Of a DNA stretch of 30,098 nt, positions 2,461 to 25,800 are shown one piece after another; within the stretch, counting starts at the first letter, position 1; every line of letters starts with the position of its first letter. The notes beneath the pieces were generated by a model, which saw nothing but the letters and a program-made list of their open reading frames with translations, searched no databases and had not been told where the DNA came from. The stretch covers positions 1-30,098 of the IMG/VR virus record IMGVR_UViG_3300027963_000234; one strand, 5' to 3'. Origin of the DNA: a virus. A program made the position numbers and the translations under genes.

Positions 2461-3366
2461 TTATACTACTTTTGCAAATCTAACTGGAACGTCAATGGTA
2501 TAGCCAGTAGTAACGCCAGTTATTCTAATGTTGCTATCAACATAGTAGCAATTTGTTGGTGTTGCATCTACATTATTTATATTTGTCGTTGAACCAAGCA
2601 AATTAAACAAATATGTACTTGAATTTAAATCAAGAGATGCTTGTATTTTAAATTGCAAATAAGTCCCTCTAGGACCAGCAATTACCATGCCAGAAGAGTT
2701 TGTTGTTCTGTCTGTTATCTCTTTAACATAATCAATATCTGAATCTGCGGAGAAATAATAACTGGCTATATTATCGTCGTCAATAAACGAAACTACTGCT
2801 CTAGAATTGTCAATTGTACTAATAATATTGCCTAATCTATTATCTATTTGTAGAATATATTGAGTTTCAACTAAATCAGAATCAATTGCAAAAGCAGGAG
2901 ACACTTCAGATGTATCTAAGCCTTGGTCTGTTCTGATAGCACCTCCGTTTGAAGGAGTCTCTCCGAACAATACGCCAGTTGCAGTTCCAAGACTTGTTTC
3001 GGTATCAGTATCAACAGCTACAACAAATACATTAGAAGAATGTCTTTGAAATCCAGTAACAACATCATTCAGTTTCACAACTGGTAAATAAAGAAGGTTG
3101 TTTCTTGAAATAGATAATAGTTTAGATTTTAATGAGATAGTATTATTCGTAAATGCTTCAAATACAGGTGATTGAAGAATGTCAAGGTCATAATAAGCAG
3201 AACCACTTGGATGATTCTTGTTGTAAAGACCATAATTTATTTCATCATCACCAAAAGCAAACTTGACAATTCTAAAAGAACCATCGCCTTTTGCCAATCT
3301 AAAACGACCAGTATCTGTTAAAACTGCATCGAGTACAATATCGCCGCTATTATCTAAAAATGCCAT
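2461..3366 (-). CDS. Putative tail-associated protein with tail-collar-like N-terminal module
   Basis: This 301-residue protein begins with a compact module at residues 1-50: VLDAVLTDTGRFRLAKG, then FRIVKFAFGDDEINY. The pattern LTxxGxxxLxxG followed by a beta strand and FxxGDD resembles the N-terminal collar domain of gpH-type tail fibres (LTxxGxxxL ... GDG), which attaches fibres to the baseplate. The same pattern opens the 325-residue protein at 9156-10133. The remainder is beta-rich, with Asp/Asn/Ser/Thr-heavy turns, and ends IDVPVRFAKVV. The start is well supported: GAGG sits eight bases before the ATG. It sits between the FN3-like protein and the tandem paralogues. I infer a baseplate-attached or fibre-base component. 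The collar resemblance is a pattern match by eye, not a verified homology. Confidence 0.8.
   Translation of the reverse strand: MAFLDNSGDIVLDAVLTDTGRFRLAKGDGSFRIVKFAFGDDEINYGLYNKNHPSGSAYYDLDILQSPVFEAFTNNTISLKSKLLSISRNNLLYLPVVKLNDVVTGFQRHSSNVFVVAVDTDTETSLGTATGVLFGETPSNGGAIRTDQGLDTSEVSPAFAIDSDLVETQYILQIDNRLGNIISTIDNSRAVVSFIDDDNIASYYFSADSDIDYVKEITDRTTNSSGMVIAGPRGTYLQFKIQASLDLNSSTYLFNLLGSTTNINNVDATPTNCYYVDSNIRITGVTTGYTIDVPVRFAKVV
3217..3366 (-). other. Tail-collar-like N-terminal module of the 301-residue protein
   Basis: Residues 1-50 carry VLDAVLTDTGRFRLAKG and KFAFGDDEINY. Compared with residues 1-43 of the 325-residue protein (VIDLQLTQFGKQLLSQG, then YYSFFDN and VLYD), the shared skeleton is V-x-D-x-x-L-T-x-x-G-x-x-x-L-x-x-G-x-F, an aromatic strand and an acidic turn. 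The likely role is an attachment module joining different distal parts to a common site. Confidence 0.5.
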
Positions 3367-9155: not shown

Positions 9156-10133
9156 TTAAACATCACAGTTTTCAATATCTTCATCAACAATATTAGATTG
9201 ATAAATACTAATTGGTAATACTTGATTTAAATCATCGCATTCATAATCATCATCAAGTAGATAATCCAGTTTTTTCATTCTTTTAACAGATTCGCACACC
9301 AAATTAGTTGGTATTTGTTCGTCATATGATATTTGCAAATAATGGTCAATAAACTCAGATGTTTTTGGTAATAAATCATCTGAAAATGGTAGTGGTACTA
9401 ATTGTTCATAACTTGATGAAATTGCATCGGCTGTTGTGCCACTACTTACTGTTTCAACAAGAAAAGCAAAAATATCAAAATTTTCTTTTTCAAAATCAAC
9501 ATTATTCTCCAAAACTTGTAACAGCAAATACTCTTGCGTTACTTTAAATGTTGTAGAGTCTGAAAAACTTCCAACATATTTTATGTTTTGATTTGTTGTA
9601 AAGTTTGTTATTGTAGCAATATCTATTGGTTTAACTGTATATGTGATGTTTGCGTTAAGTTGTGGTATCTTTTGAACATTGTAAGAACTTGAATATGCAG
9701 TTTCAACTGACCCAGATAACTCTCCATTTAAAAATACAACAGAAAAGTTTGGCGATTTTTGATTTCCTAATTCTGAATTTCCAAGTGGTAAAAGCTGAGA
9801 ATAAGCAGCTTCTGCTGGGTTTGCGAAAGAAAGCACAGAAGATTCTGGTTGATTAGCCAATCTTGTTCTGTTGGTTTCAGAAAAAGAACTTATTGCTGTT
9901 TCTCTGCTTGAAAAAACATATTGAGTTTTATTGTATGGAGTTTCTTCTTGTATTCTGTCTTCAATATCAATACTATTTTCTTGCACAAGGCCAGAATATG
10001 CTGAGTCGTACAAAACATTATTATCAAAAAATGAATAATAAAAAGGTTTAAATTTACCTTGTGAAAGTAATTGTTTTCCAAATTGTGTTAATTGTAAATC
10101 AATTACTTCTTCTTTTTTATTAAAGAACGACAT
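9156..10133 (-). CDS. Putative tail-associated protein with tail-collar-like N-terminal module
   Basis: This 325-residue protein opens with MSFFNKKEEVIDLQLTQFGK and continues QLLSQG, FKPFYYSFFDN and VLYD (residues 1-43). This is the same LTxxGxxxLxxGxF plus aromatic-strand layout seen in the 301-residue protein, and it resembles collar modules of tail fibres. A helical acidic stretch follows (IDIEDRIQEETPYNKTQYVFSSRET), then a beta-rich middle. The C-terminus is strongly acidic (LLDDDYECDDLNQ, VDEDIENCDV) with three Cys in the last 50 residues. The start overlaps the stop of the 3013-residue gene by one base (TAATG), with AAAGG 12 bases ahead, so translation should be coupled. Position directly after the giant matches the place of the fibre gene in P2-type tail operons. 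Function is inferred. Confidence 0.82.
   Translation of the reverse strand: MSFFNKKEEVIDLQLTQFGKQLLSQGKFKPFYYSFFDNNVLYDSAYSGLVQENSIDIEDRIQEETPYNKTQYVFSSRETAISSFSETNRTRLANQPESSVLSFANPAEAAYSQLLPLGNSELGNQKSPNFSVVFLNGELSGSVETAYSSSYNVQKIPQLNANITYTVKPIDIATITNFTTNQNIKYVGSFSDSTTFKVTQEYLLLQVLENNVDFEKENFDIFAFLVETVSSGTTADAISSSYEQLVPLPFSDDLLPKTSEFIDHYLQISYDEQIPTNLVCESVKRMKKLDYLLDDDYECDDLNQVLPISIYQSNIVDEDIENCDV
9999..10133 (-). other. Tail-collar-like N-terminal module of the 325-residue protein
   Basis: Residues 1-45 show VIDLQLTQFGKQLLSQG, an aromatic strand (PFYYSFF) and an acidic turn before VLYD. The alignment to residues 1-50 of the 301-residue protein needs only a two-residue gap. It is probably an attachment module; similarity to gpH collar domains is a pattern match only. 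Confidence 0.5.
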
Positions 10134-13100
10134 TATTTAAGACCTTTATTTATTTTTGAAGATAAGTTTGATATTGCCGAATTTGTTTTACTTATAGAGT
10201 CAGATAAAATAGTCTCTGTAGGACTTACTTGATTACTTGCTTCTCTATATCTATAATTATTGTTAGATTCTTGTTTTGAACTACTATTTTTAGAGGAGCC
10301 TAATTCTGGAACTGTAAATCTCTCGTTTGATAAGGTTCCAACTGTTTTTTCAGTTGTGAAAACAGATGTTCTCGTGGTGTCGTCTGGTGCTTGGAAATCA
10401 ATTGCTGTATTGATATCAGCAAGTTCAACTAATGAGAAAAAGTCATAAGGCCAGTTATAACTATATTTTACATCAGTAAATAGATTTTCGTTTATATTAT
10501 TAAAGATTGTTATATCTTTAATTAACTTATTGTTTGTATCTACAGCTTTGTTACCAAGATATTCATTGTAATCTATCTTTGCTCTTTGTTTGACTTTGAA
10601 AACCATCCATTGTAAATTAGTATCTATTGTTTGGTTTCTAAGCGCATTAGCATGACCCATTAATTCATTATAAAGAAGTTTGTGAGAAATAGTGGCTGTT
10701 TTCTTTTCTACTTTACGTGAATTAACAGGTGGCAAGTTTTGCCAAATATATGAAAGGTCATTTTGGTCTAAATAATAATCAAACTCAAATACATACATAG
10801 AAACTGGCGTTGTTTCGTTGTTGGTCTTGAAATCAAACATTGGTGGAAATACATATTTATCTAAATATGTTACCATTTGTTTGATTGTATTACCCGCATC
10901 ATCTGAGCCGTCAGAACTTGGTTCAGCTAAACCTAAAGAAATATCTGCTGTTTTTCTTGGAATTTCAAAGAACTTTTTAACACCATTTTCTTCAATATAT
11001 GGAACAGCGACAACTGCTTCATAAACTTTTTTAGATTTTTGTAATTTACCCAACTTAACAGGTTCAGTAGAAAATCCAACAAGTTTTGTTAAATCTCTAA
11101 TACTTGTAGAAGCGTTGTAATAAGAACTACCAGTTGCCAATGGATGATATTGAAGCCAATTATCTGGGATTGATTCAATTTGAATAAACACTCCTTCGTT
11201 ATCTTGTGGAATTTTTCCAAATTGATGCCAAATTCCATATGGTATTGCTTGTCGTCCTGTAGTTGAAACTTCATCACCATCTAATGCAGTATCATTAAAA
11301 TTGAGCATTGGAGTTTCAAATTTTGTTTCTATATTCCAAGCATATGTAATGTCATTTGTTTTTAACAGTCTATTGTTGGTAAGAGTATTAACATCGGAAT
11401 TAACAATAGTTTTATAATTTTGAATGTTCAAACAAGCACTAAGATGCATACAGTTGTTATTCAAATTTGTTTTAGATAATAAGAAGTATGAACCGCTTAC
11501 AGAATCTTGTGATGTAGGAGGGAATACATTAACTGTGCCGCTTACATATTCTGTGCCTACTGATGAAGTCCAAGCAGCCTGTCTTGTATCGAAGCGCAAA
11601 TAATTAATATTACTGTTTTGAATAATTTCTTGAATTGTATATTTTTTGGTTTCTGTTGCTTTGAAAACAATATCTGCCCAAGATTCACCATAGTAATAAG
11701 GTGGTGTATAGATTGGATTATAGCCCAATCTAGCGTCCCTAGTATAATAATTACCAGCACTATTGCCATTTGATGGATTTAAAGTACCACTATTAATAGA
11801 AGCGGCAAAGTCTGGTCCAAATGCAGATGGTCTGGAATAAAGTGTGAAAGTTTCGCTTAATGTTTTGTTTCCTTTATACGCAGCATAAACAGAAGCAGTA
11901 TAATCAGAAGAAATATCAAATTTAATACTTTGAGATAAAACATAATCTAAGTTTGTATCGGGGTCTTGTGGTAAGTCATAATTTAATGGGAAATAATTTC
12001 TATTTTCGTTTAATGAACGATAGATTTTTAATCTTGCACCATAAACAGAACCAGAAGTTAAGTTAAGATTTAATGTATTTTCTGGTTTTGATTGTATTGA
12101 TGTTAATTTTTGCTCAGATAAAAAGAAATTAACGGTTTCTGCTAAGAAATTGTTAATCATATACTTGTATTTATTGTCACCATCAGACTTAAGGATACTT
12201 GTACTAATACCATCTTCTCCAGAAGCAGATAATTTGTTGATAAAGTTTCTATATCTTAAATTTGTGCTTGCTGATGGGTGAGATTCAAAGTCATATAGTG
12301 TAATATTTTTTGTATATTTATCTGGCTGCAAGATTGCTTCAAATGGCAATCTTTTAGTAATAACTGCATCATCATTATTTCTTGCAACTATCATAGCATT
12401 AGACCCGCTTCCGTTAGCATTTGGAACATCAATTGCTTTATAACTGTAGAATGATGCAGATAGGTCAGAGTCTAAAACTGGTTTTTGCAACAATGCATAA
12501 TCAACGGCAATACCAGATTTTATCGTATTGTATAAAATACCGGGTGCCATAAATGGTGTTATGAAATTTCTGTGTTTAATATCATCGCCAAATACTGAGG
12601 CGGTTATAAACGAACTAGATGCTAATGAAGAAGAAACATATGGCAAATAAGAAGAAGAAAATGCAGTTGCAATATCTACTGTTCTGTCGGCTGGGAAAAA
12701 TCCTTTGTATGGTATAAATTTAATATATGCATTACATTCTAATGTAATTTTGAGTGGATCGACTAAATCTTTGTGGTCTTCTTTAACAACAGAAAAGTTT
12801 TTCATAAATTCTGTGTTTGTATAAGTTTTATAAAACACATCAGAATTATTATCAGAATAATTTGCGTCGGCACCAATAATTTGTAAATTATTTAATATGC
12901 TAATATCTTTGGACGATAAATAATCACTAATTTTATTTTCTAATCTAAATTCTGGTATTAATGAGCCATTTTTTCCTATGTAACTAATGTCATCTGCATA
13001 TTCATCATATGAATTATAAAATGGATTAATTGATGAAGAAGAATATGTACCATCATTGTTTAAGATTGTTGCTTTTTGTGCAGCGGACCAATAAGCATCA

Positions 13101-16100
13101 CCAAAACCAATTGGAAGTGGAAATGCTGGCGCGCTTAGATTTTTTCCAGTTGGCGCAACAAAAGAATTTAAATTTTGTACCATATGTTTTCTACTAAACA
13201 AAGGTGAAATTTTTAATTGTGCAGCACTACTTGTTGAACTATAGTAAAAAGAATGGTTATTTTGTAAAATTCCTGCTCCATCTCCATTTGTTTTTACGCC
13301 AGCACTATTTGTTGTGCGTGTATCAAAAGATTGAATTGCGTCCAAAGCCCACATGCTTTGACTAGATATCGTAATTGAACCGTAAGAAGAACTGCTATTC
13401 AAGGTAATTCTATCAGATTGTGAATCTCTCCAGAATTGATTATCATAATTTGTTCTTTTTCTAACAATTTTCTTATATCTGTTTATTGCAGATGGATAAA
13501 TATTTTCTTGATATTTTAATGAATTAAATTTGTTTATTGGACTTGAATTGCTTTGTAAAGCACCTCCAAGATATAATTTGGTAATTGTACTATATGACTT
13601 ATTTTCACACTTAGTTAAACCTAGCAAATAATTAAATTCATCATTACAGAAAAGTTCTGTCTCATTTTGATTGCTAAAAGTAATTTGCAAGTTTGAAGAC
13701 AATTTTCCATCACTATATCCGAGAGAAGCAAGAATTGGCTTTCTAGAAACAACATAAGGCTCAGAATAAAATCTATTTGAATTTCTTGTGTAAATTGTTA
13801 CTAAATTACCTGTTGGTCCTGTTACGGTAACTGGTATTGTATCAACGTTGCCAAATTGGCTATTTTTAATTTGCAGTTTTACTGATGGATGTGTTGAACG
13901 ATATAATTGTTTAAATGTTGGATATTGGTATAAACCATTTCTCAAAATCATAAGTGCATTAAACAATCCTGCTTCACTAGAAACAGATGTAACAATTGAA
14001 CTTGTAAGTGATGACAAAGAAGATGTTATAGAGCCTAGGCTATCATAGCCAACGCTTTCAACGATTACTGTATTTAATCCAGAGGAGTCAATTGTAGTAA
14101 TAGCACCAGTTAAAACGAACTGAGAGCCGCTAAGACCAACATCCGATACCGATACAAAAGGAATTTGTTGGACAACAGAACTAGTGCCTTGTGGTACTGT
14201 AACCAAACTATTGTTTAAACTAAGTTGTGCAACATTTCCACTTGTTATTCCTTGGGTAAGAGAAGCTGTAATCCAAGAATAACCTGCGTCTTTTCTGGGA
14301 ATTTGATAAGAAACAAAACCATTATTATAAGTGCTTCTCAAGCCATTATCATCAAATCTATACAATGTGTTTCTATTGACTTTGTGAATAGATGGAATGG
14401 TTGCAGAACCACTCATTAGCCCACCAAAATCAGAATGTCTTGCAAGTAATTGATTGTAGTTATATCCTATTGTACCTTCAATTATTTCTGGCGTGTAGCT
14501 TGAAGATTCGATTGTAAGATTGTCATTTACTCTTCTTGCATCGCCAATAACTTGTTTGTTTCTAAATGGTAATGCGTTGTAAGCAGAAAATTCTTCTGCA
14601 TATCTGTTTAGATATCCTCTTGAATTTGTTCTTAATTCGCCGGGTGCAGAGAATCTATTTCCAATTACAGTTTTGTATGGTGTTCTTGTTGGTAATTCAA
14701 AATCAACTCTGTCATCATTTGGAGCAGTTCTTAAAACAGTTCTAAGTTCAGTTTGTGCTAAATTAACTGTTCCTGTTTGGTCAGTTAAAAGCATGTTGTT
14801 GTTTGTTCTACCAACTGTGTGCAGGACTTCGTAATTACTTCTAAAATTACCTAAATTGTAAGAAGACGTAGAATATTGAATATTTGCTATATTTACAGGT
14901 TTTTTGCTTGTGCCTTCTCTGTAATAATAAGCTCTCTTGTGTGCTCTAACAGGATAAGAAGGTTCGTCTGGGTTTCCTTCTGGGAATGGATAATCAGCGC
15001 CTACAAAGCCCATTGTTGCTTGATAAGAAGAAGTTCCAAGTTGTCCAAGCAACAATTTCCAAGCCTCTGGACGGCTTGTATAAGTGTCTGTTCCCCTGTT
15101 AAGTGCAACGTGTCTGGATTGTAATCCACCAACCCATTGTTCTGTAAATGGACCTTGCATTGGCTTTTCTTTATTTGGTCCATAGGTGTCGTTGTGTAAG
15201 TTGGTGATAATAACGCCACTTATAAAGTTCTCTACAACATCTGCATTATAACCAGTTGTAATATTACCACTTATAAAATTAGCTGGTATTGCAATATCAG
15301 ACTTTAATACTTCTCCGTATCCCAAAGAAGAAGAAAGATAGTCACGACCATGAACTACGTTAAAAGAATATTTAATTTTCTTGTTTGGATTTTTAACATC
15401 AGAAATATCTTTTAATAATGATGATGTGTTTTCTACACCAATGAACAAATAGTTTGCAGGTACATTGATAACGTCATCTGCATCCATTGGTCCGTGTGGA
15501 GCAGTAGCAATCTTTAAGAAATCAATCTTATTATTTTTATGTAAATTTGTACCACCCTTTATTTCACTAACTTCATCGACAACATATCTTGTTGGTGTTG
15601 TGTATTTTCTATTTAAAGCAGAAGCAGCAACAGACAATATTCTACTTCTGCTATAATTTGAGGATGATACAGAAGAAGAAAGTGGTGCAGTATCTCTCTC
15701 AGCGCGATTTAACCAATAATCAGCATTATCGGATTCTAAACCAGTTAATGGTCTGTGTCCAAATTTCCAATTATAAACAAGCTTATTAATTGATTGAGCA
15801 CCAGCTTCTGGGTCTGTTCCCTTGAATTCAATTGTTGGGAATTTGTTCCAGTATTTATTTCTTTCTAAAATGTGACTTTCAATAACATTAAAAATCTTTT
15901 CAGATACGTTAGCAGATGCTGGTGTAAGTTGTGAAATAAATACAGATATTGCAGAATCTAACCATTTATATAAATCTACGTATTTATCAAGACTTGGAGT
16001 GTTTTGTACTCTCTCAAAAAATAACTGTCTAAGTTTAGACATATCTTTATATTCTTGACGATAACGATTTACAGGCTCGCCAATCAAATTATTAAATTCA

Positions 16101-19100
16101 ATAATGGTGCCAAACATATTCAACATTTCTTCTGAAATGCTTTGGTACATGCTTTTTTCGAATGTATAATAATAATTTGCAGGTCTTGTTTCTCTTGTAT
16201 AAACCAAATCATCTTGTGTTAAGACTTGAATTGTGTCAAGAGAATCTAAACTTTCTGGTAATTGTTGTTTTGCAGCAAATACATATTCAACATTCACAAC
16301 TTGGTCGTCATTTGGTAAGAAGAAATCACCACGACCAGTATATTGATGGTTCAATATATCACCAAGCCAACCATATCTATTTAGAAGCTCCAAAGAACCA
16401 GAGGTTGCATCTGGAACTATAAATTGGGCAACTTTATTAGTTGGATTACCGGGGTCACCACCATCAGAAGAGGTAATAGTTGCAAAATCCCAATTTAATG
16501 CTAATGTTTCTATTTGTGGTACATAAGTGCCAGAAATGGAAGTTACAGAAGGGACATAAGCATTTCTGTAAGCATGTAAAGAGCCATAATTTGATGCATC
16601 TTTTGAATGTGCTATTATAACATCATTTTCAAGATAAGATTGCCAATATTTAAGTGTTGAAATTTTGGTATCTGTTCTTGTTAAAACATTTTGTGAAGAT
16701 GTGAAATTAAGAACGTGTGAGCCAATATAAAATCTTTTTGCTTTTGAGAAGAAGTTTTGTCCTCTTGAATTGTTAATACTTTGAGTTAATAAAAATTCAC
16801 TCTCGATTGTATCAAGATTTGTTTTGACGCCATAAAATTCAATTGTATATGTAGCTGAGTTAGTAGTGCCAGAAACAGCATCAATATTTTCATACTTATC
16901 TGGTCTTACTCTAACGGCAAAATTCCATTTTGAATTATCATATACGTTTAAATAAACAGAAGATGTTAAATTAACATATGTGCCATTATAATCGGTTAAT
17001 TGAAAATAAGCATTTTTTGATTCTTGTTCTGGTCTAACAGCATAAACTTGGAAGTTAATATCATCAGAACCGTTCCAAGTTAAATTGTTTGCACTTGCGG
17101 AGTTCGCTTCGTGCATACCGAATAAAGACGAAGAAAGGAAAGGATATGAAACATAAAGTGGTTCTCCTTTTTCAAATCTTCTGGGGAATATTACTTCTGT
17201 TTCAGCGGTCATTCCCATATAAGAAGCAGAAGTATTGCCGGGTATATATGAAAGAGAGCTTGTTATAGAAGCATCAGCGAATTGATATACTGTTGTATCA
17301 AATCTGTCAGTATCGTTAAAATCAACAAACTTCTTTTTTACTGCGGTAGAATATGTGTTGTCTTGCAATTTATATGTTGAACCATCAGCATACAAATTCA
17401 TTTTGATTAATTCTGAATCTACACCAAAACAGCGAATTAAATTACGATATGATTTTTCTGTTCCTTTAGACTTTAAAATTCCATCTAAATTGTTGTAAAT
17501 ATTTAAATAAATTTTGTTTTTTACATCATTTAAAGATGAACTAAAAAATACAGCATCATTTCTATTAATGAAAAATTCTGAAATTTCAGATTCAACAAAT
17601 ATTTCTGGTGTTATAAAACCGGAATTTTCCAGCAATCTATTAGCAAAAGTAATTGGTTTATCAGAACCACTTGTGTAGTTCATGTTTTTAATTTTAGTTA
17701 AAAACCAAATTTGTTGATATAAATTATCAAAATAAGAAGAAATTACTTGAACAAGATTTGGTAACAAACCTTCGCCACTTTTCTCTTCTTCTTCTCTTAT
17801 CCATTGTGGTATATAATTGTAGATTGCAGCATTGTTTTCTGTATCATGCTCAAAGCTTTCATCGATTAATGTTTGTAGCGATGAAGTATAATCTGGATGT
17901 ATTGCATATACAGTAGGGTCTGGTTGTTCTGAAAAATTACTAGATATTAAAGCAGAGCCAGTATTTCTACAATCTTCTTCATATCCAACAAAAGTACCAT
18001 TTGAAATTCTACCAGAATAATCTAATATTATTGAATCATACGATGAAGAACCTACTATACCTTCATTAAACTTGAAATATACACCTAAATCAGTATTGGC
18101 ATCGTCCGTATTTGTTCCGCCATTTACATTTGTAAGCCAATTAAATTTTATGTCTTTTTCTGTTCTTGCTGTTTTCCAGTATCTGAATTCATCGATGGAG
18201 CCAGATAATTTACCCCAACCAAGTGCTGTACTAGAACCAGAATAAGCGGTAATCAAAGAACCAATCGTAGCCAACATTGCGCCAGTTACTGGCTGTAATG
18301 AAGTTCCAAATGTTATATTATCGTTTAATTCTCCATTAACATAAAATTTTGTGTTAATAGTAGAACCTGTGTTCTTTAAAACAACGGAATATTGGTTCCA
18401 GCCAGAGGATGTTAATTCTGATACAGTTACATCACCAAGGCGAACTCTACTAAATCCGTTTGTTCCAGATTGTGCAGTAAGATAAAACGAAGATAATGCA
18501 GTTGTAGAACTTGTTATTTCTAATACCAATCTACCATAATCAATACTAGAAGAATTTTTATTGTTCCATAAATCAAAAATAACTTCTTTTTCAGTTTTGG
18601 AAGAATCAAAGCCCTGTTTATTTAACCAAAATTCTATTGTTACGCCGTTTGTTAAGTCGTAATCTAAATTACTTGCTCTTTTATATTCTTCTGAATAGTA
18701 ATTAGAATATTTAAATTTTTCAACTAATGTACTGCCAGATGTATTTGGGCCACCTTTAATATAAATATAGCTAGAAGTTACAGAATTACCATATCCGCCT
18801 ACTAAAGAACCAGTTCTTGTACCCCATCCATTTGGAGAAATTGACACATAACCAGTATATCTTGGATATTTGTTGTCAAATATCCACTTGTCAAAATTAG
18901 AGGAAGTATTAAAAAATTGTATTTTCTCTTTTAATGAACCATCATATGGATATTGTTGAGAAATTCTTGTATATGCATCACTATAATATTTGCTTGCTAG
19001 ACCAAATTTAGCAAAACTTCTTGGATTTGAATAATCAACTGGTGGAACAAATCTGTTGATATCGATTTGTTTTTGTTCTATAAATTCTGCTGATTCTATT

Positions 19101-19174
19101 TCTGAACCTAGAGTATCTAAACTCTGCGATGCAACTACCTTTGGAACACTAGAAAAAATACTTTTTAAACTCAT
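10133..19174 (-). CDS. Giant (3013-residue) baseplate/tail protein with two LamG-like domains flanking a P2 gpI-like segment
   Basis: A single uninterrupted frame of about 9 kb. Residues 168-400 are a LamG/concanavalin-like sandwich (GVTIEFWLNKQGF, FYVNGELND, GSIDEFRYWKTART). Residues 440-600 resemble the P2 gpI tail protein (YIPQWIREEEE, then ILKSKGTEKSYRNLIRCFGV). Residues 655-870 are a second LamG-like unit (YLNVYDNSKWNFAVRVRP, FYIGSH, ISTLKYWQSYLEN). Further compact, probably conserved blocks are RHVALNRGTDTYTSRPEAWK (about 1355-1375), NRFSAPGELRTNSRGYLNRY (about 1505-1525), SIHKVNRNTLYRF (about 1595) and AVVAVPYIEENGVKKFFEIP with MYVFEFDYYLDQNDL (about 2710-2810). The rest is Ser/Thr/Asn/Tyr-rich beta material. 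It follows the 497-residue gene directly (stop then ATG) with AAGG nine bases ahead. I infer a giant wedge or peripheral baseplate protein, perhaps replacing gpI or gp7, with sugar-binding sandwiches facing the host. A giant fibre is the alternative. Confidence 0.85.
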   Translation of the reverse strand: MSLKSIFSSVPKVVASQSLDTLGSEIESAEFIEQKQIDINRFVPPVDYSNPRSFAKFGLASKYYSDAYTRISQQYPYDGSLKEKIQFFNTSSNFDKWIFDNKYPRYTGYVSISPNGWGTRTGSLVGGYGNSVTSSYIYIKGGPNTSGSTLVEKFKYSNYYSEEYKRASNLDYDLTNGVTIEFWLNKQGFDSSKTEKEVIFDLWNNKNSSSIDYGRLVLEITSSTTALSSFYLTAQSGTNGFSRVRLGDVTVSELTSSGWNQYSVVLKNTGSTINTKFYVNGELNDNITFGTSLQPVTGAMLATIGSLITAYSGSSTALGWGKLSGSIDEFRYWKTARTEKDIKFNWLTNVNGGTNTDDANTDLGVYFKFNEGIVGSSSYDSIILDYSGRISNGTFVGYEEDCRNTGSALISSNFSEQPDPTVYAIHPDYTSSLQTLIDESFEHDTENNAAIYNYIPQWIREEEEKSGEGLLPNLVQVISSYFDNLYQQIWFLTKIKNMNYTSGSDKPITFANRLLENSGFITPEIFVESEISEFFINRNDAVFFSSSLNDVKNKIYLNIYNNLDGILKSKGTEKSYRNLIRCFGVDSELIKMNLYADGSTYKLQDNTYSTAVKKKFVDFNDTDRFDTTVYQFADASITSSLSYIPGNTSASYMGMTAETEVIFPRRFEKGEPLYVSYPFLSSSLFGMHEANSASANNLTWNGSDDINFQVYAVRPEQESKNAYFQLTDYNGTYVNLTSSVYLNVYDNSKWNFAVRVRPDKYENIDAVSGTTNSATYTIEFYGVKTNLDTIESEFLLTQSINNSRGQNFFSKAKRFYIGSHVLNFTSSQNVLTRTDTKISTLKYWQSYLENDVIIAHSKDASNYGSLHAYRNAYVPSVTSISGTYVPQIETLALNWDFATITSSDGGDPGNPTNKVAQFIVPDATSGSLELLNRYGWLGDILNHQYTGRGDFFLPNDDQVVNVEYVFAAKQQLPESLDSLDTIQVLTQDDLVYTRETRPANYYYTFEKSMYQSISEEMLNMFGTIIEFNNLIGEPVNRYRQEYKDMSKLRQLFFERVQNTPSLDKYVDLYKWLDSAISVFISQLTPASANVSEKIFNVIESHILERNKYWNKFPTIEFKGTDPEAGAQSINKLVYNWKFGHRPLTGLESDNADYWLNRAERDTAPLSSSVSSSNYSRSRILSVAASALNRKYTTPTRYVVDEVSEIKGGTNLHKNNKIDFLKIATAPHGPMDADDVINVPANYLFIGVENTSSLLKDISDVKNPNKKIKYSFNVVHGRDYLSSSLGYGEVLKSDIAIPANFISGNITTGYNADVVENFISGVIITNLHNDTYGPNKEKPMQGPFTEQWVGGLQSRHVALNRGTDTYTSRPEAWKLLLGQLGTSSYQATMGFVGADYPFPEGNPDEPSYPVRAHKRAYYYREGTSKKPVNIANIQYSTSSYNLGNFRSNYEVLHTVGRTNNNMLLTDQTGTVNLAQTELRTVLRTAPNDDRVDFELPTRTPYKTVIGNRFSAPGELRTNSRGYLNRYAEEFSAYNALPFRNKQVIGDARRVNDNLTIESSSYTPEIIEGTIGYNYNQLLARHSDFGGLMSGSATIPSIHKVNRNTLYRFDDNGLRSTYNNGFVSYQIPRKDAGYSWITASLTQGITSGNVAQLSLNNSLVTVPQGTSSVVQQIPFVSVSDVGLSGSQFVLTGAITTIDSSGLNTVIVESVGYDSLGSITSSLSSLTSSIVTSVSSEAGLFNALMILRNGLYQYPTFKQLYRSTHPSVKLQIKNSQFGNVDTIPVTVTGPTGNLVTIYTRNSNRFYSEPYVVSRKPILASLGYSDGKLSSNLQITFSNQNETELFCNDEFNYLLGLTKCENKSYSTITKLYLGGALQSNSSPINKFNSLKYQENIYPSAINRYKKIVRKRTNYDNQFWRDSQSDRITLNSSSSYGSITISSQSMWALDAIQSFDTRTTNSAGVKTNGDGAGILQNNHSFYYSSTSSAAQLKISPLFSRKHMVQNLNSFVAPTGKNLSAPAFPLPIGFGDAYWSAAQKATILNNDGTYSSSSINPFYNSYDEYADDISYIGKNGSLIPEFRLENKISDYLSSKDISILNNLQIIGADANYSDNNSDVFYKTYTNTEFMKNFSVVKEDHKDLVDPLKITLECNAYIKFIPYKGFFPADRTVDIATAFSSSYLPYVSSSLASSSFITASVFGDDIKHRNFITPFMAPGILYNTIKSGIAVDYALLQKPVLDSDLSASFYSYKAIDVPNANGSGSNAMIVARNNDDAVITKRLPFEAILQPDKYTKNITLYDFESHPSASTNLRYRNFINKLSASGEDGISTSILKSDGDNKYKYMINNFLAETVNFFLSEQKLTSIQSKPENTLNLNLTSGSVYGARLKIYRSLNENRNYFPLNYDLPQDPDTNLDYVLSQSIKFDISSDYTASVYAAYKGNKTLSETFTLYSRPSAFGPDFAASINSGTLNPSNGNSAGNYYTRDARLGYNPIYTPPYYYGESWADIVFKATETKKYTIQEIIQNSNINYLRFDTRQAAWTSSVGTEYVSGTVNVFPPTSQDSVSGSYFLLSKTNLNNNCMHLSACLNIQNYKTIVNSDVNTLTNNRLLKTNDITYAWNIETKFETPMLNFNDTALDGDEVSTTGRQAIPYGIWHQFGKIPQDNEGVFIQIESIPDNWLQYHPLATGSSYYNASTSIRDLTKLVGFSTEPVKLGKLQKSKKVYEAVVAVPYIEENGVKKFFEIPRKTADISLGLAEPSSDGSDDAGNTIKQMVTYLDKYVFPPMFDFKTNNETTPVSMYVFEFDYYLDQNDLSYIWQNLPPVNSRKVEKKTATISHKLLYNELMGHANALRNQTIDTNLQWMVFKVKQRAKIDYNEYLGNKAVDTNNKLIKDITIFNNINENLFTDVKYSYNWPYDFFSLVELADINTAIDFQAPDDTTRTSVFTTEKTVGTLSNERFTVPELGSSKNSSSKQESNNNYRYREASNQVSPTETILSDSISKTNSAISNLSSKINKGLK
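16565..17212 (-). other. Second LamG-like domain of the 3013-residue protein
   Basis: Residues 655-870 include FQVYAVRP, AYFQLTD, YLNVYDNSKWNFAVRVRP, YTIEFYGV, FYIGSHVLNF and ISTLKYWQSYLENDVIIAHS. The last element corresponds to GSIDEFRYWKTARTEKDI of the first LamG-like domain. The 'K-W-N-F-A-V-R-V-R-P' strand pairs with its WNQYSVVLKN. It is less canonical than the first copy. Confidence 0.6.
17375..17857 (-). other. P2 gpI-like segment of the 3013-residue protein
   Basis: Residues 440-600 start with a predicted helix ending YIPQWIREEEE, continue with helices (ISSYFDNLYQQIWFLTKI) and reach ILKSKGTEKSYRNLIRCFGV before a strand (LIKMNLYADG). In P2 gpI-type tail proteins a 'hxxKGT-x-x-(A/S)-hRxxhxxhG' helix precedes a short strand in the same way. 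The match is by eye and limited to this block. Confidence 0.6.
17975..18673 (-). other. First LamG/concanavalin-like domain of the 3013-residue protein
   Basis: Residues 168-400 run from GVTIEFWLNK (first strand with the EFW core) through VIFDLWNN, RLVLEI, WNQYSVVLKN, FYVNGELND and GSIDEFRYWKTART to GVYFKFNEG. This strand order, with the paired 'W-x-x-Y-x-V-V-L-K-N' and 'Y-V-N-G' elements, is the usual LamG/pentraxin pattern. Such sandwiches often bind glycans; binding is not shown here. Confidence 0.8.
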
Positions 19175-20668
19175 TTAGGTAACCTTAAATTTGAATACTT
19201 CTGGTTGTTCGATATAAGTGTTCATATCACCATTGTAATATGCAAGCTTTATACCATAACTATAACCTTGTTCTAATATTGACATATCAAAATCAAAATA
19301 ATTTCCAGAATTATCAAATGAAAGTTCGCTAAACTTTTCGCTACCTGTGCTAAAAGGAATTACTTCCAAATCATCAACTAATCTAAATATTTTATATGAG
19401 CCACTTTCTATTATCGATGGTTCAATATATGTGTTTGCAACAGTATAAATGTTTGGACTCCAATCTTTATTACGTGCAAAAATCTTAAATCTTGCAATTT
19501 CATCTTTCGAATAATATTGTTTCATATTTGTAATTTTACTTACATATGTTGTATATGGTGCTGGTTCTGATGTTTCAAAATCAATAATATCTATAGAACC
19601 AGTATAATAACAAGTTGTAAATGATGAATTGGACCACCTATCAAAGACTTGCGATGCTGTTGTATTAAGAGCAAATGTAGCAGAATATACACCAGTTTTA
19701 ACCCAAGAGCCAGTAACAGGATTATTTGGTGTTGCAGCAATGGTTACACTACCTGTTAAATCAGTATGAATTTTAACATAAATATTTCCTGTTCCAATCG
19801 TTGGAATATCATAAAGTCTACCACGGAAATAATTGTACAAGTAAATTGTGTGTAAGTTTTGATCTGCTGGTAAGTTAGAAGAACTTGCGTAAAAGTTGGA
19901 TCTGTCATCTTTTACAGCATCATTCCATCTTGCTTCAAGGTTTGGTCTATAAAAAAAGTATTCTGATGAACGAGCAAAGAATTTTTTTGTATAATAACTT
20001 ATAGATGCACCATTTGGATTAAATGGTACAGATGCTGAAGTTATTCCAGATGAATTTGAATAATAAGCTTCATTGCTTGAAGTTAATTTAAGTAACAAAC
20101 CATAATTTGGTCGCGAACCAGTAATCCATTGCTCAACAATTGAAGTTATATCAATGTTTAAGTTTTCAAGACCAGTTTCAAAATATTGAGAAAAAGCAGA
20201 AGAGGTAAGATAATCACCACCTTGATTTACCCAAGCAGCACCACTTGCGGCATTTGCCCAAGTAGTTCCTATACCACCATAGGTTAAATCAGAAAACTCT
20301 TCCATATCGAGTCCTCTACCCTCTTCCCACGACCTTGAAACAGGAAATGCATTTATTGTATATTCATAAGGAGTTGTACTTGAATGTGGTGCGTTATAAA
20401 GATTTAAGTAAAACTTCACGTTACCAGATACAGGAATTTTTTTGTTTGTTCTATCGGAAGCAAGGTCTGAAATTGGAAATTGAATCAAAAATCTCATTAT
20501 TTGTTGCGCTTCATTATCAGTAATTGTTGAACCTGTTTTATAAAGCGAAAACACCTCTAGAATATCTGCCCTTCCCATATTAGAGCCAGTTGCTCTTGTA
20601 TTACCGTCTGTTTTAAATGCGTTTGTTATTGAAGCATCTTTTTCAGCATAATATCTTTTTATAGCCAT
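19175..20668 (-). CDS. Baseplate-region protein with DNRLRE-like N-terminal domain
   Basis: This 497-residue protein lies between the gp6/J-type gene and the giant. Residues 1-200 have the layout of DNRLRE-type beta-sandwich domains. They start with YYAEKDASITNAF, contain IMRFLIQFPIS and VKFYLNLYNA strands, then SRSWEEGRGLD, and finish with IDITSIVEQWITGSRPNYGL (171-190), the characteristic 'D-h-T-x-h-V-x-x-W-x-x-G-x-x-N-x-G-h' signature. A second part (about 210-290) contains KKFFARSSEYFFYRPNLEAR and LYNYFRGRLYD; the C-terminus is a further sandwich ending in VFKFKVT. The ATG shares one base with the stop of the upstream gene (TAATG), with AGGAA 12 bases ahead. In bacteria DNRLRE domains occur on surface proteins and adhesins. 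Here a connector between wedge and giant protein, or a peripheral appendage, is likely. Confidence 0.82.
   Translation of the reverse strand: MAIKRYYAEKDASITNAFKTDGNTRATGSNMGRADILEVFSLYKTGSTITDNEAQQIMRFLIQFPISDLASDRTNKKIPVSGNVKFYLNLYNAPHSSTTPYEYTINAFPVSRSWEEGRGLDMEEFSDLTYGGIGTTWANAASGAAWVNQGGDYLTSSAFSQYFETGLENLNIDITSIVEQWITGSRPNYGLLLKLTSSNEAYYSNSSGITSASVPFNPNGASISYYTKKFFARSSEYFFYRPNLEARWNDAVKDDRSNFYASSSNLPADQNLHTIYLYNYFRGRLYDIPTIGTGNIYVKIHTDLTGSVTIAATPNNPVTGSWVKTGVYSATFALNTTASQVFDRWSNSSFTTCYYTGSIDIIDFETSEPAPYTTYVSKITNMKQYYSKDEIARFKIFARNKDWSPNIYTVANTYIEPSIIESGSYKIFRLVDDLEVIPFSTGSEKFSELSFDNSGNYFDFDMSILEQGYSYGIKLAYYNGDMNTYIEQPEVFKFKVT
20069..20668 (-). other. DNRLRE-like domain of the 497-residue protein
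   Basis: Residues 1-200. The strongest support is the block IDITSIVEQWITGSRPNYGL followed by LLKLTSS, together with an N-terminal 'D-A-S-I-T-N' strand and the WEEGRG turn. The family signature is recalled rather than searched. Confidence 0.6.
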
Positions 20669-22464
20669 TATAATACAGTTCCTATTATGTCAGAATTTGG
20701 ATATTTAATTTCAAAAATATGGTCTTCTGGGATTGAGACATATCTACCGTCAGCAGATTTATTGGCCTCAATATCATATCCTACATCGGAATATACGCCA
20801 CCAACTCTATTAAAAATAGTAACTTTTTTAACATCTGCAATAGTTGGAACTTTTTGTAACGCTACCATAACATCTGTTAAATATATTGGCTCTCCAATTT
20901 CAAATTTTCTTTTAAATTCTTCTTTTACTGCTTTAATACCATCATCTAAAGCAGAATATTTACTTTCTTGTTGTGTTGCTTTAATGCTAAATTTAATACC
21001 TATATTGACTACTTTTGCATCAAGAATATCAACAGTATCATTAACCATTTTTACTCTTGAAAGCCAAGTCTTTAAATTTTGTTTAATTGTAGTATTTGCA
21101 CTAACTAAAAATCCATTTGAATCTTCGGATAAAACATAAAGATTTAAATTTCTTTTTATAGAGTCAGCATCACGAACAATATTACATCTTGCTATTGAGC
21201 CAAACTTGGCTGGCATTGCATAAGTAAATGCTTTGTAGTCTTCTTTTGTTACTGCTCTATTTTGAGAAGCGAAATAATTCAATGCTCTAATTTTTAACTC
21301 TTCTGTTGTTGGAACTGTGGTGCTTCCAATTATAGGAAATTCATTATCAATTTCTAATGAAGCACGTACAGCATTTTTAACATCATTAGACAAATTTGCT
21401 TCGTCTGCAAAACTAAAACTTGGACTTACTACTTGGCTTAAACTTCCAACAGATGCATTTACATTATTTACGGAATTTGCTCTATAAACAACAGTCAAAG
21501 TTGTATTTGATGGACCAATTCCAAATTTGTCATTTTCAACTAATCTTGTTGGGTCAAAAGAGGTATCAGAAAAATAGTTTTTAGCGTGCATTTCTAAAAC
21601 AGTATTTTTTGGGTCAAATATATCGTTTTCAGTATCTATTGCAGAATCTGAACCGTGACCAAATTGCAAATAAGTGTTTATTGCAGTTCTTTCAACAGTA
21701 AATCTTCTAGCAACAACAAATGGTTTTAATATCGATGGAATACCATCTGATAAAGCATTTGGGTTAGTAGTTTCAGAATAAATTATGTTTTGTGCCAACG
21801 AATCAACTTCATAATATTCATTCCCTTCGGCATCTACAACACTTATAATTTCTGCTATATTATTAGAACCTAAACCAACCTTTCTAAACTTTTCAAAGTC
21901 TCCAATTGTAATGGTTCTTCTAAAATTATTGCCAGATATTATTCTTCCATTTGCTTTAATTGCATACTCTGTAGGTAATCCAGTAGTATCATCTATTTTA
22001 GAGGCAATAACTAAATTTTTACTACTTTTAAATTGCACGTTTTCAGCTAATATAAAATTAACACCATTAGTTGTAGAAAATACGCTATTTCTTAATAAAG
22101 TAGGAACATATCTGGTATCTGGTCCTAATCCAGAAGCAACTGCTGGAATTGAAATATAAAATGTAGCAATTCCAGTTGAAGAAGGAGCAAGTTTGTTTCT
22201 ATATCCAAGTTGTCTCGCTATTTTAATAACGTTGTTGTATTCGTTGGCTGTATCAAAAAAAGATTCATTTACTTGATAATCTAAATAGAATGATAAAGTA
22301 TCGCCAATATAGGATACAGTTTCAAACATAAGAGAAGCAAAAGAGTTTTGGCTAAAATCTTTTACTGTATCGCCATAATATCTTTGTGCATAATCAAGCA
22401 AATCTTGCTTAATAGAATTATAATCTCTGCTAGTGTATTTTATGCTTGGTTTGCTTTTTGACAT
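20668..22464 (-). CDS. Baseplate wedge protein, gp6/J family (baseplate J-like)
   Basis: This 598-residue protein matches the baseplate J/gp6 family along its length. Residues 5-90 have the classical N-terminus: YTSRDYNSIKQDLLDYAQRY, then TVKDFSQNSFASLMFETVSY, IGDTLSFYLDYQVNESFF and IKIARQLGYR. Residues 402-429 carry the family's second hallmark (NRAVTKEDYKAF, then PAKFGSIARCNIVRD). The C-terminal part holds the YLTDVMVALQKVPTIADVKK block. In T4, gp6 dimers form the inner ring of the baseplate and drive the sheath contraction signal; this protein should occupy that position. It lies directly after the gp25/W gene (37 nt gap) and overlaps the next gene by one base. AGGAA lies 14 bases ahead of the ATG, a rather long spacing. 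This is one of the best-supported calls. Confidence 0.93.
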   Translation of the reverse strand: MSKSKPSIKYTSRDYNSIKQDLLDYAQRYYGDTVKDFSQNSFASLMFETVSYIGDTLSFYLDYQVNESFFDTANEYNNVIKIARQLGYRNKLAPSSTGIATFYISIPAVASGLGPDTRYVPTLLRNSVFSTTNGVNFILAENVQFKSSKNLVIASKIDDTTGLPTEYAIKANGRIISGNNFRRTITIGDFEKFRKVGLGSNNIAEIISVVDAEGNEYYEVDSLAQNIIYSETTNPNALSDGIPSILKPFVVARRFTVERTAINTYLQFGHGSDSAIDTENDIFDPKNTVLEMHAKNYFSDTSFDPTRLVENDKFGIGPSNTTLTVVYRANSVNNVNASVGSLSQVVSPSFSFADEANLSNDVKNAVRASLEIDNEFPIIGSTTVPTTEELKIRALNYFASQNRAVTKEDYKAFTYAMPAKFGSIARCNIVRDADSIKRNLNLYVLSEDSNGFLVSANTTIKQNLKTWLSRVKMVNDTVDILDAKVVNIGIKFSIKATQQESKYSALDDGIKAVKEEFKRKFEIGEPIYLTDVMVALQKVPTIADVKKVTIFNRVGGVYSDVGYDIEANKSADGRYVSIPEDHIFEIKYPNSDIIGTVL

Positions 22465-22501: not shown

Positions 22502-22867
22502 TTAGACAGAAACTGTAAGTGTAGTAGGAGCAGAACCAGAAATAGAAAATTTTATTGTAATACTCAATCCATTTTGTGATGATGCAGTTTCTTCAATTTT
22601 TAGTTCTGTTACATTAATATAAGAAAGATATTTAGAAATTTGTGAAAATATTCTGTTTTTTAATCCTTCAACAGTAGAAGTGGTTAAGTTTTGAAATATA
22701 TATCTTTTTAAGCCAACTCCATATTCAACATCTATTCTTTCGCCGGGATTTGTTAATAAAAGATTTAAAAGATTTTGTCTTGCATTTCCGACAGTAGTTG
22801 TGTGAGCAGAAACTCCAAACACTCCATCTACTCTTAATGGTAGTATTGGTGCAATTGTACTAGGCAT
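22502..22867 (-). CDS. Baseplate wedge protein, gp25/W (lysozyme-like) family
   Basis: A 121-residue protein whose residues 29-60 (ARQNLLNLLLTNPGERIDVE, then YGVGLKRYIFQN) are the hallmark of the gp25/W family: helix, 'L-L-T-x-P-G-E-R', then 'G-x-G-h-x-x-h-h-F'. The family forms part of the wedge core next to gp6/J and is shared by T4, P2 and contractile injection systems. Length is typical (110-135 residues). I place the start at 22867 rather than the upstream ATG at 22891 because AAGGAG at 22878-22883 sits 11 bases before it, while the upstream ATG lies before that site and would add a basic MRTRRNRI leader. At 22867 the ATG shares one base with the stop of the giant upstream gene (TAATG), so translation should be coupled. 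Confidence 0.92.
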   Translation of the reverse strand: MPSTIAPILPLRVDGVFGVSAHTTTVGNARQNLLNLLLTNPGERIDVEYGVGLKRYIFQNLTTSTVEGLKNRIFSQISKYLSYINVTELKIEETASSQNGLSITIKFSISGSAPTTLTVSV

Positions 22868-25800
22868 TATTCTGTTTCTCCTTGTTCGCATTCATTGCCA
22901 TTATCGTCGTATGGCCTTCTTTCTAGTATTCTATCTTTTGTTATTACAAATGGACCAACTGGTCTTAACAGAGTATTTACTCTTTCCATTAAAGCATCTG
23001 GTCCTTTTGTAAGATTTGATAAAATAGGATTTTTATATTCTGTATCTTCCCAATTGTAAAATATATCAAAAAATATCTGGCAAGCTTCTTTAGATTTATA
23101 AAAATTCAAGAATTTTTCATCAAAAGTAACTTGTTGTGCTGCAACCCATTCGTCGGCAATTCCTATGGTTTTAACATAAGTTTCGGTTATGAACGCACAA
23201 ACAGCAGACATATATTTTTGCAACGGAACACAATAATAAAACAAGAATCTAAATTCTTCACTCTCATACAGTTCTTTTACCAAACAATCATGATTATATT
23301 GATTAGTACCACTATTTGGGTCAAATGATGCCAAAGTATCATTAATCATATCTATTTCTGCCTGTACAATTGGTATAATATATTGTGAATTTTTTATCCC
23401 GTCAGAATTTAAATCGCATACAGGTAAAAAGTATGCCTTTTCTAACATATTAATATTTGTATTAATTGATGGTAAATCAGAAAAAACATTTTTTGGAGGC
23501 ACATAACTTAAACGAAGACCGTACTTAATACCCAATGTAGAGCCAGTAAGTTGGTATCCTTGTTCTTGTGAGCCAGTAACAGATAAATCACCAAATAATT
23601 TAAACATTTCCGTATTTTGAACTTCAGTTGGCAATGTACCAATCCATTCTTTGAAGGAATTTGCATTTACAACACCAAATAAATTTTCTGGTCTGTTTAT
23701 TATTTCTTCTGGGATTACAGTTCCAGAAATAGGGACCGTTCTATCTTGTAACTTGACATATCTTTCTAAAAAGAAAAATCCATTTGGATTTTCTTGAAAT
23801 TCATATGCATTTAAATAATCAATAAATGCAGAATCAGATAATATTACATCTTTTAGTGAATCCAAAGGATTTTTATCGCTACTACTAGCAACATCAAAAT
23901 ATGAATTACTTCCATTTCTTAAAATATTGAAATTATCAGAATCTAAAAAGTATTTACGAATATTAGTTTTTGTTGGAGTTGTATAAATATGGGCAGCAAA
24001 GTTAGAGGACATTGCAGATATTTCATCTTTTAAAATTTTACGCAACAATATTTTAGCTTCTACTTTTGTATCTCTAATTGCTTGTAAAACCATTTCTTTT
24101 CTTATTCTTTTAAGAGATGGATTTGTAATTGATTGTTCATTTAACTTATTCATAACTGTAATCAACATTTGTTTCATAGATGTGCCGACATTGTTTTGAA
24201 TATTGCTAATTGTAGTCAAGATAGTTTTTAATTGATTTATTAAATTGTTTGATGCAGAATTACTTGGGTAATTTGCAACAAATGTTTCATAAAGTTGTGG
24301 TATTGATTGAACAGTATCAGAACCTTCGCTAAATATCTTTAATGCGTCATATTCTGATGCTCTTGTATTTAAAATTGGTTCAAAAGTTGAATAATTTTCT
24401 TCAATTTTTGAAAATTCGCTATTTCTAATTGAATCAATCAATATTATTGTTGATTGCTTTAAGTCTTTCAAGATTTCATTCATTTGTTCTAAAAATTTAA
24501 AATCTTTATTTTTTACAAAGTAAAAATCTCTTATCATAGCGTTGATTGAATCCATCGCTTGTTGTTCAACGTCCGTGAGAGTAATTTCTTCAGCAATTAA
24601 TTTTCTAGATACGACTTGAACGCATTGTTCTAAAAATTGTAAATAATATTCATCATTTACAGTATTAAGTATGCCTCTTGGTTGATTTAAAAGACCTTTT
24701 TCTATTTTTGTCAAAATATAATCAATATATAATTCATCTATTACTTTATCATAAGAAACAACAAACTTATTATATAATGGCATACATCTTAAAATTGCCT
24801 CAGAAATATAAATTCTAAGAGTAGTAACTACTGCTACTTGTAAGTTAGCAGCCATAATAGAAGATAAAGGTTTAATATATGGCACTAATTCACGGCATTC
24901 TGGAGAATAAGCTAATTGAATATCGTCAGACAATTTTCTTTGTAATTCTGTCATAAGTTGGCTTAATTCGTCAAAATTAACAATATTTTCTACTTTTGGC
25001 TCGCAACCAAACTCTGGTATTATTGAATCCGCCACACCTAGCCAGCCTGTTCTGGCTGGTGGCTTAATGTAGATTGGAGGTTGGTCTTCTGTTCCGCCAT
25101 ACTTAGTGTAATCTAAAAACACAACTCTAGGATTATTTGTTTTTCTTTCTAATGTATCTGGGTCTAATTCAATATCCTCTTGAGTTATTTTGTCATTTTG
25201 ATAATCATATCCAAAAAGATAAGCTTCTGGTTCTGATAATGATTGATTTATAAATTTGAAACCTCTATCGGCAATAGAATCGTAGTTGTCAATTGTTATT
25301 TGCTGTGGCGTTGAATATTGACCAATAGAAATTTTAGAATTAACAAACGAAATAAAACAATCAGCTTGTGGAGAATTTTGAATATAAGATGGTAAATATT
25401 GTTCTTTTAATTGTCTTATATTATCATCTAAATCATATCTAGATTGATAGATAACATTGTATGTTTCAATCTTTGGAACTTTTCCAATCAACAAAGTAGA
25501 AGTTAGAGCTTCAATTTGATCAAACTGAATATCAGATGGTATTTTTAATTCTTTTATTTCTGTTAATTCAGATTCAGTCAAAACTGCAAGTCTGTTTAAA
25601 TTATCCGAAGATATATCACCGTCTTTAAGCGCAAATTGAGAAAATAATAAATGATATTTTTTACCAATTGGTACAAAATCTGGATATCTAGAAGTGTTAA
25701 TAGTGAAACTATAATCTTCTTTTTTACCAAACAAAATTCTTTTTGGTGTTTCTGCATCTGTTCTAGCATTATAAGATGTTGTTCTTGTAAAAAACGCTTT

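Follow-up and report, generated by a model that had tools for sequence, protein, structure and literature searches.

A giant LamG-containing protein of an uncultured marine virus is probably an enlarged gp7/gpI-type baseplate wedge subunit

In phage P2 and in the type VI secretion system (T6SS), the third subunit of the baseplate wedge joins two copies of gp6/TssF (PMC6300606; PMC4604203), and residues 37-152 of the T6SS subunit, TssG, resemble TIGR02242, the family whose prototype is P2 gpI (PMC4604203). P2 gpI consists of 176 amino acids and has no LamG domain, but other members of this class are large: T4 gp7 has 1,032 amino acids, A511 gp104 (encoded right after gpJ and carrying an RGT motif) 1,309, and gp7 of the Prochlorococcus phage P-HM2 4,454. 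The window analyzed here, the complete 30,098-base virus record IMGVR_UViG_3300027963_000234, contains a gene of 3,013 codons just downstream of genes for gp25- and gp6-type wedge proteins. With considerable confidence, its product is an enlarged third core wedge subunit (gp7/gpI/TssG-type) of a contractile-tail baseplate in a marine virus of bacteria; it would be the counterpart of P2 gpI, TssG, and gp7 of marine T4-like phages. The original prediction, made from the sequence alone, had proposed a gpI-like segment between two LamG-like sandwiches, and this layout was recovered; its notion that such a size is unusual for gpI/gp7 is not supported, given the proteins named above.

The gene is a single frame without any internal stop, as originally described; its orientation (minus strand), which had not been given, was fixed by this analysis. 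More than 2,000 putatively beta-rich residues had been predicted beyond the LamG and gpI-like parts, and ∼2,100 residues are present there. The features of the protein, followed by the neighboring genes, are:

10133..19174, minus strand: giant gene, whole open reading frame with stop, 3,013 amino acids; ATG start, uninterrupted, full-length relatives
18863..19090, minus strand: N-terminal helical segment, residues 29-104; AlphaFold model, mean pairwise identity 0.456, kept in all relatives
17921..18859, minus strand: LamG1, residues 106-418 (Laminin_G_3 match 168-343); Pfam match, AlphaFold model, Z ∼20
17375..17902, minus strand: gpI/TIGR02242-like helical segment, residues 425-600; recurrent sub-threshold matches, in register
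17420..17479, minus strand: gpI-typical helix motif ILKSKGTEKSYRNLIRCFGV, residues 566-585; present in the translation, as predicted
16460..17359, minus strand: LamG2 (predicted fold), about residues 606-905; AlphaFold model, alignment of tandem-LamG chains
15821..16177, minus strand: helical segment, residues 1000-1118; mean pairwise identity 0.568, the most conserved part of the protein, common to the immuto/Mel-JY01 proteins
10385..15757, minus strand: C-terminal part (C-part), residues 1140-2930; conserved blocks with variable insertions, separate gene in some relatives
22502..22891, minus strand: gp25-type baseplate wedge protein, 129 amino acids; PF04965, E 8.3e-9
20668..22464, minus strand: gp6/J-type baseplate wedge protein, 598 amino acids; phrog_219, E 4.5e-19
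19175..20668, minus strand: gene for 497 amino acids, constantly between gp6 and the giant gene; gene order in relatives
9156..10133, minus strand: gene for 325 amino acids immediately downstream of the giant gene; syntenic in relatives

The genes for gp25, gp6, and the 497-amino-acid protein lie upstream of the giant gene and are co-directional with it. The order gp25, gp6, 497-amino-acid gene, N-terminal part (N-part) and C-part of the giant gene, 325-amino-acid gene was identical in all relatives with sufficiently long contigs, and parallels the orders W-J-I of P2 and gp6-gp7 of T4 and cyanophages. A scan of viral contigs recovered 51 relatives, and in the segment homologous to residues 425-600 K166, G167, and G180 (segment numbering) were invariant in 50 relatives. 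When 50 homologous segments were searched, the most recurrent NCBIfam model was TIGR02242 (14 segments; next model, 3) and the most recurrent Pfam model was Tail_P2_I (PF09684; 13 segments; next model, 4), both of which represent the P2 gpI family. Within the window's own family, TIGR02242 was matched in 8 of 38. Profile-profile alignment placed the KGT motif in register with the KGT/RGT helix motif of ten gpI proteins (P 0.007 to 0.0004). With hhalign, alignment A6 gave P 0.0005 against gpI and the segment of the Microcystis-phage (Mel)-type relatives 0.00043, the latter never attained by 60 column shuffles (best, 0.024). The N-terminal profile of cyanophage-type gp7 also matched, over a short stretch, at the KGT helix motif and in register (A6, P 8e-5; A1, P 1e-4; lowest shuffle, 0.055). 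In whole-record searches of phage immuto and G008, the sole TIGR02242 match per genome was the KGT motif of the giant-gene homologue; the sole Tail_P2_I match in LR756508 was likewise found there, and no passing Tail_P2_I protein was found elsewhere in the relatives' records. Together, these findings strongly suggest that the core is homologous to gpI/gp7.

The first sandwich is secure. Laminin_G_3 matched residues 168-343 with E 1.7e-8 (35.2 bits, compared with the Pfam cut-off of 27.6), and was matched in 27 of 39 relatives. In the AlphaFold model, which spans residues 1-1145, LamG1 forms a confident LamG/pentraxin sandwich (VIA Z 20.5, root-mean-square deviation 2.8, 216 residues). The second sandwich was borne out as a fold, but not as a profile match: LamG2 is below Pfam detection, Laminin_G_3 marking only one stretch of the window protein. 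Structure supports its assignment, as it is well modeled as a sandwich, and tandem-LamG chains (laminin LG4-5, neurexin) cover both sandwiches over residues 106-920, with 342-351 aligned residues compared with ∼175 for single-LamG chains; the fold was judged from this search with the whole N-part. In addition, the LamG2 region of the Mel-type relatives matched LamG1 of the window protein (P 6e-5). Both domains are single-copy in nearly all relatives; in one (L031), LamG1 is doubled or interrupted.

Most relatives possess one frame of ∼2,900 to 4,100 residues, alignable up to about window residue 2930; among bacterial genome contigs, no relative of residues 405-1145 was found. In several relatives, N-part and C-part are encoded by separate, touching genes: similarity to the window protein switches genes between residues ∼1117-1160 and 1145-1290 in L023, L026/L027, and L042/L047, whereas L028 is split near residue 1640. 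The second genes have their own ATG, mostly in another frame, and several are preceded by Shine-Dalgarno-like leaders. On the core tree, the split forms are scattered among fused ones; one supported clade (100/100) unites L026, L027, and L023 with the fused L034 and L039, and L042 and L028 are placed elsewhere on an unresolved backbone. This distribution suggests several events of separation or joining. Variation is concentrated in the C-terminal 1,800 residues. No known family could be assigned to the C-part, and large insertions are present in that of relatives, particularly at about window residues 1611 and 2110. In 5 of the 19 relatives' C-parts scanned, Laminin_G_3 domains were found; the additional LamG stretches (in residues of the respective protein) are L011 1529-2267, L013 1809-1946, L014 1880-2002, L021 1332-1433, L043 1208-1279, and L049/L052 1847-1948. 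LamG, MAM, and pentraxin-type matches also occur in C-parts of some relatives.

The invariant gene order and the split forms bear on the explanation that an assembly or sequencing error fused separate genes, for which the two-gene relatives might be taken as an argument. Since most relatives carry the frame whole and in fixed gene order, and since the split genes have starts of their own, the frame is real and such an error is excluded. A more serious alternative is that the protein is a tail fibre or receptor-binding adhesin which simply adjoins the wedge genes, its KGT motif being a chance match. Its LamG domains, its size, and the LamG/MAM/pentraxin-type matches in the C-parts of some relatives would fit this, as would the lack of a passing gpI match. 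Several results weigh against a gpI-type subunit. The cut-off of Tail_P2_I or TIGR02242 was reached in no single protein, and whole-protein HMMER searches with gpI-family profiles yielded nothing above cut-off; the best values (TIGR02242, E 0.0096; PF09684, 0.033 and 0.024) are all sub-threshold where shown. The predicted gpI-like segment (440-600) thus stands as recurrent, in-register similarity below every cut-off, and the protein is classed as gpI-like rather than assigned to Tail_P2_I/TIGR02242. Furthermore, family matches at E ∼0.01-0.1 on homologous sequences are non-independent tests, and recurrence, register, placement of the KGT motif, and gene position share sequences and are, hence, not independent of each other either. 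The isolated segment was modeled weakly (mean predicted local distance difference test score 65.5), and with this weak model as query no credible match was obtained in the PDB (Foldseek, VIA). A hidden Markov model of gpI (A3) matched nothing in the relatives' records, and the extra 497-amino-acid gene separates gp6 from the giant gene. A T4 gp7 profile had no detectable similarity to the window protein, but this comparison is empty because it had none to P2 gpI either. No baseplate protein was among the matches listed for the whole N-part model, a search dominated by LamG1; sequence searches of the PDB with A1 and A2 gave chance matches only, and a scan with P2 gpI retrieved near-identical copies only. 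Against the adhesin, the N-part is conserved, each of the 51 relatives having a single gpI-like and a single helical segment; gpI-family matches recur, the in-register profile alignments exceed column shuffles, and no alternative gpI candidate turned up. The adhesin is considered improbable.

The wedge-subunit assignment also has a stronger form, with which it overlaps in probability, in which LamG1 and LamG2 act as genuine receptors for host glycans. Glycan binding is known for LamG folds, but so are structural roles. Wedge proteins with carbohydrate-binding modules do exist: Gp119 of Bacillus phage Vp4 binds cells (PMC11406892), and Alg11 of AlgoCIS has two such modules (PMC8894135). However, LamG1 and LamG2 lack hypervariability; with mean pairwise identities of 0.415 and 0.375, respectively, their conservation comes close to that of the core (0.456), so that rapidly changing receptor-binding surfaces are not suggested. 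The receptor-binding role in the wedge that had been proposed for the sandwiches is, thus, not supported, and true receptors are regarded as doubtful. If this protein exerts host binding, the C-part is the likelier place, because insertions and extra LamG domains occur there while LamG1 and LamG2 are conserved. Less probable still is a far-reaching version in which the flanking LamG domains are wedge-built host-glycan sensors that couple binding to the wedge hinge with no need for separate fibres; the gain of C-terminal LamG domains in relatives would then shift the hosts recognized.

For the enlarged wedge subunit, we infer assembly with gp6 and all functions as follows. Residues 425-600, and probably also 1000-1118, would form the helical core that joins two gp6 copies per wedge, by analogy with TssG and gp7 (PMC6300606); this role is proposed because of gene position and core similarity. 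LamG1 and LamG2 would be fixed sandwich domains mounted on the core. The C-terminal 1,800 residues would form a periphery that could carry or dock fibres and that, in some relatives, has gained further LamG domains.

The closest parallels in size and region are found in cyanophages. P-HM2 gp7 is encoded directly after gp6, as are the baseplate wedge initiator of Synechococcus phage ACG-2014f (4,225 amino acids) and a counterpart in Sf-CH3 (3,335 amino acids, annotated as virion structural protein). The KGT motif of P-HM2 gp7 lies near residue 220, compared with 570 here, leaving less room before it, and no overall BLAST similarity between the window protein and cyanophage gp7 was detected. The annotation of gp105 of Sinorhizobium phage phiM12 cites similarity both to gp7 and to TIGR02242. 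In Pelagibacter phage HTVC008M, gp055 (L202:33435-36485), annotated as "head closure Hc2," is encoded directly after gp6 and has a KGT motif (ISLYKAKGTKAANEIFFRALF). This protein has the appearance of a gp7/gpI-type wedge protein under a wrong annotation, even though gp7 has been reported as absent from pelagimyophages (PMC7029224). VrlC of HTVC008M and A511 gp106 were also considered as counterparts and rejected, as they gave no signal.

Smaller homologues are encoded at the corresponding position, behind gp6 and the counterpart of the 497-amino-acid gene, in Flavobacterium phage immuto (gp109, 1,265 amino acids), Microcystis phage Mel-JY01 (WWT39511, 1,336 amino acids), and LR756508 (1,400 amino acids); they are annotated as hypothetical or not at all. 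For those of immuto and Mel-JY01, homology extends over residues 441-1114 of the window protein (hhalign E 2e-22). As the smaller proteins lack a C-part and any clear equivalent of LamG1, the gpI-like segment, LamG2, and the helical segment may constitute an older, shared unit. The 497-amino-acid protein was found in 53 loci, the immuto, Mel-JY01, and LR756508 lineages included; it matched no family above cut-off and is a further conserved, unannotated baseplate-region protein.

Giant gp7 proteins are already known from cyanophages, and carbohydrate-type modules from wedge proteins. Vp4 Gp119 (831 amino acids; third wedge protein, BW3, in the scheme of that paper) resembles the window protein in carrying carbohydrate-binding folds, but these are carbohydrate-binding-module folds, not LamG, and their binding was shown experimentally (PMC11406892). 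In AlgoCIS, the gp7-like part of Alg12 is similarly enlarged and laterally exposed, and Alg11 similarly has its modules inside a wedge protein; however, the modules reside in Alg11 rather than in the gp7-like protein, Alg12 fuses gp6-like and gp7-like parts, and no LamG is mentioned in the passages considered (PMC8894135). In the open-access literature searched, also for LamG in baseplate wedges, no description of this family or of the LamG-gpI-LamG arrangement was found; the arrangement would add to the few known wedge proteins with carbohydrate-type folds. The assignment offers an identity for a giant hypothetical protein of many uncultured marine viruses and for its relatives without annotation in the cultured phages immuto and Mel-JY01, and the two-gene relatives mark where the minimal wedge protein ends (∼1,120-1,160 residues) and the add-on module starts.

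Elsewhere in the window, a second giant open reading frame (22867-29487, minus strand; 2,206 amino acids) lies directly upstream of gp25 and overlaps its start; similar sequence was found in only 11 relatives' loci. A 301-amino-acid protein (MAFLDNSGDIVLDAVLTDTGRFRLAKGDG...; 2461-3366, minus strand) is matched at 38-51% identity in immuto, Mel-JY01, LR756508, L149, and L164, each time on the downstream side of the giant-gene homologue. The leaders of the starts at 19174, 20668, 22464, and 10133 (minus strand) are A/T-rich, with no clear Shine-Dalgarno sequence.

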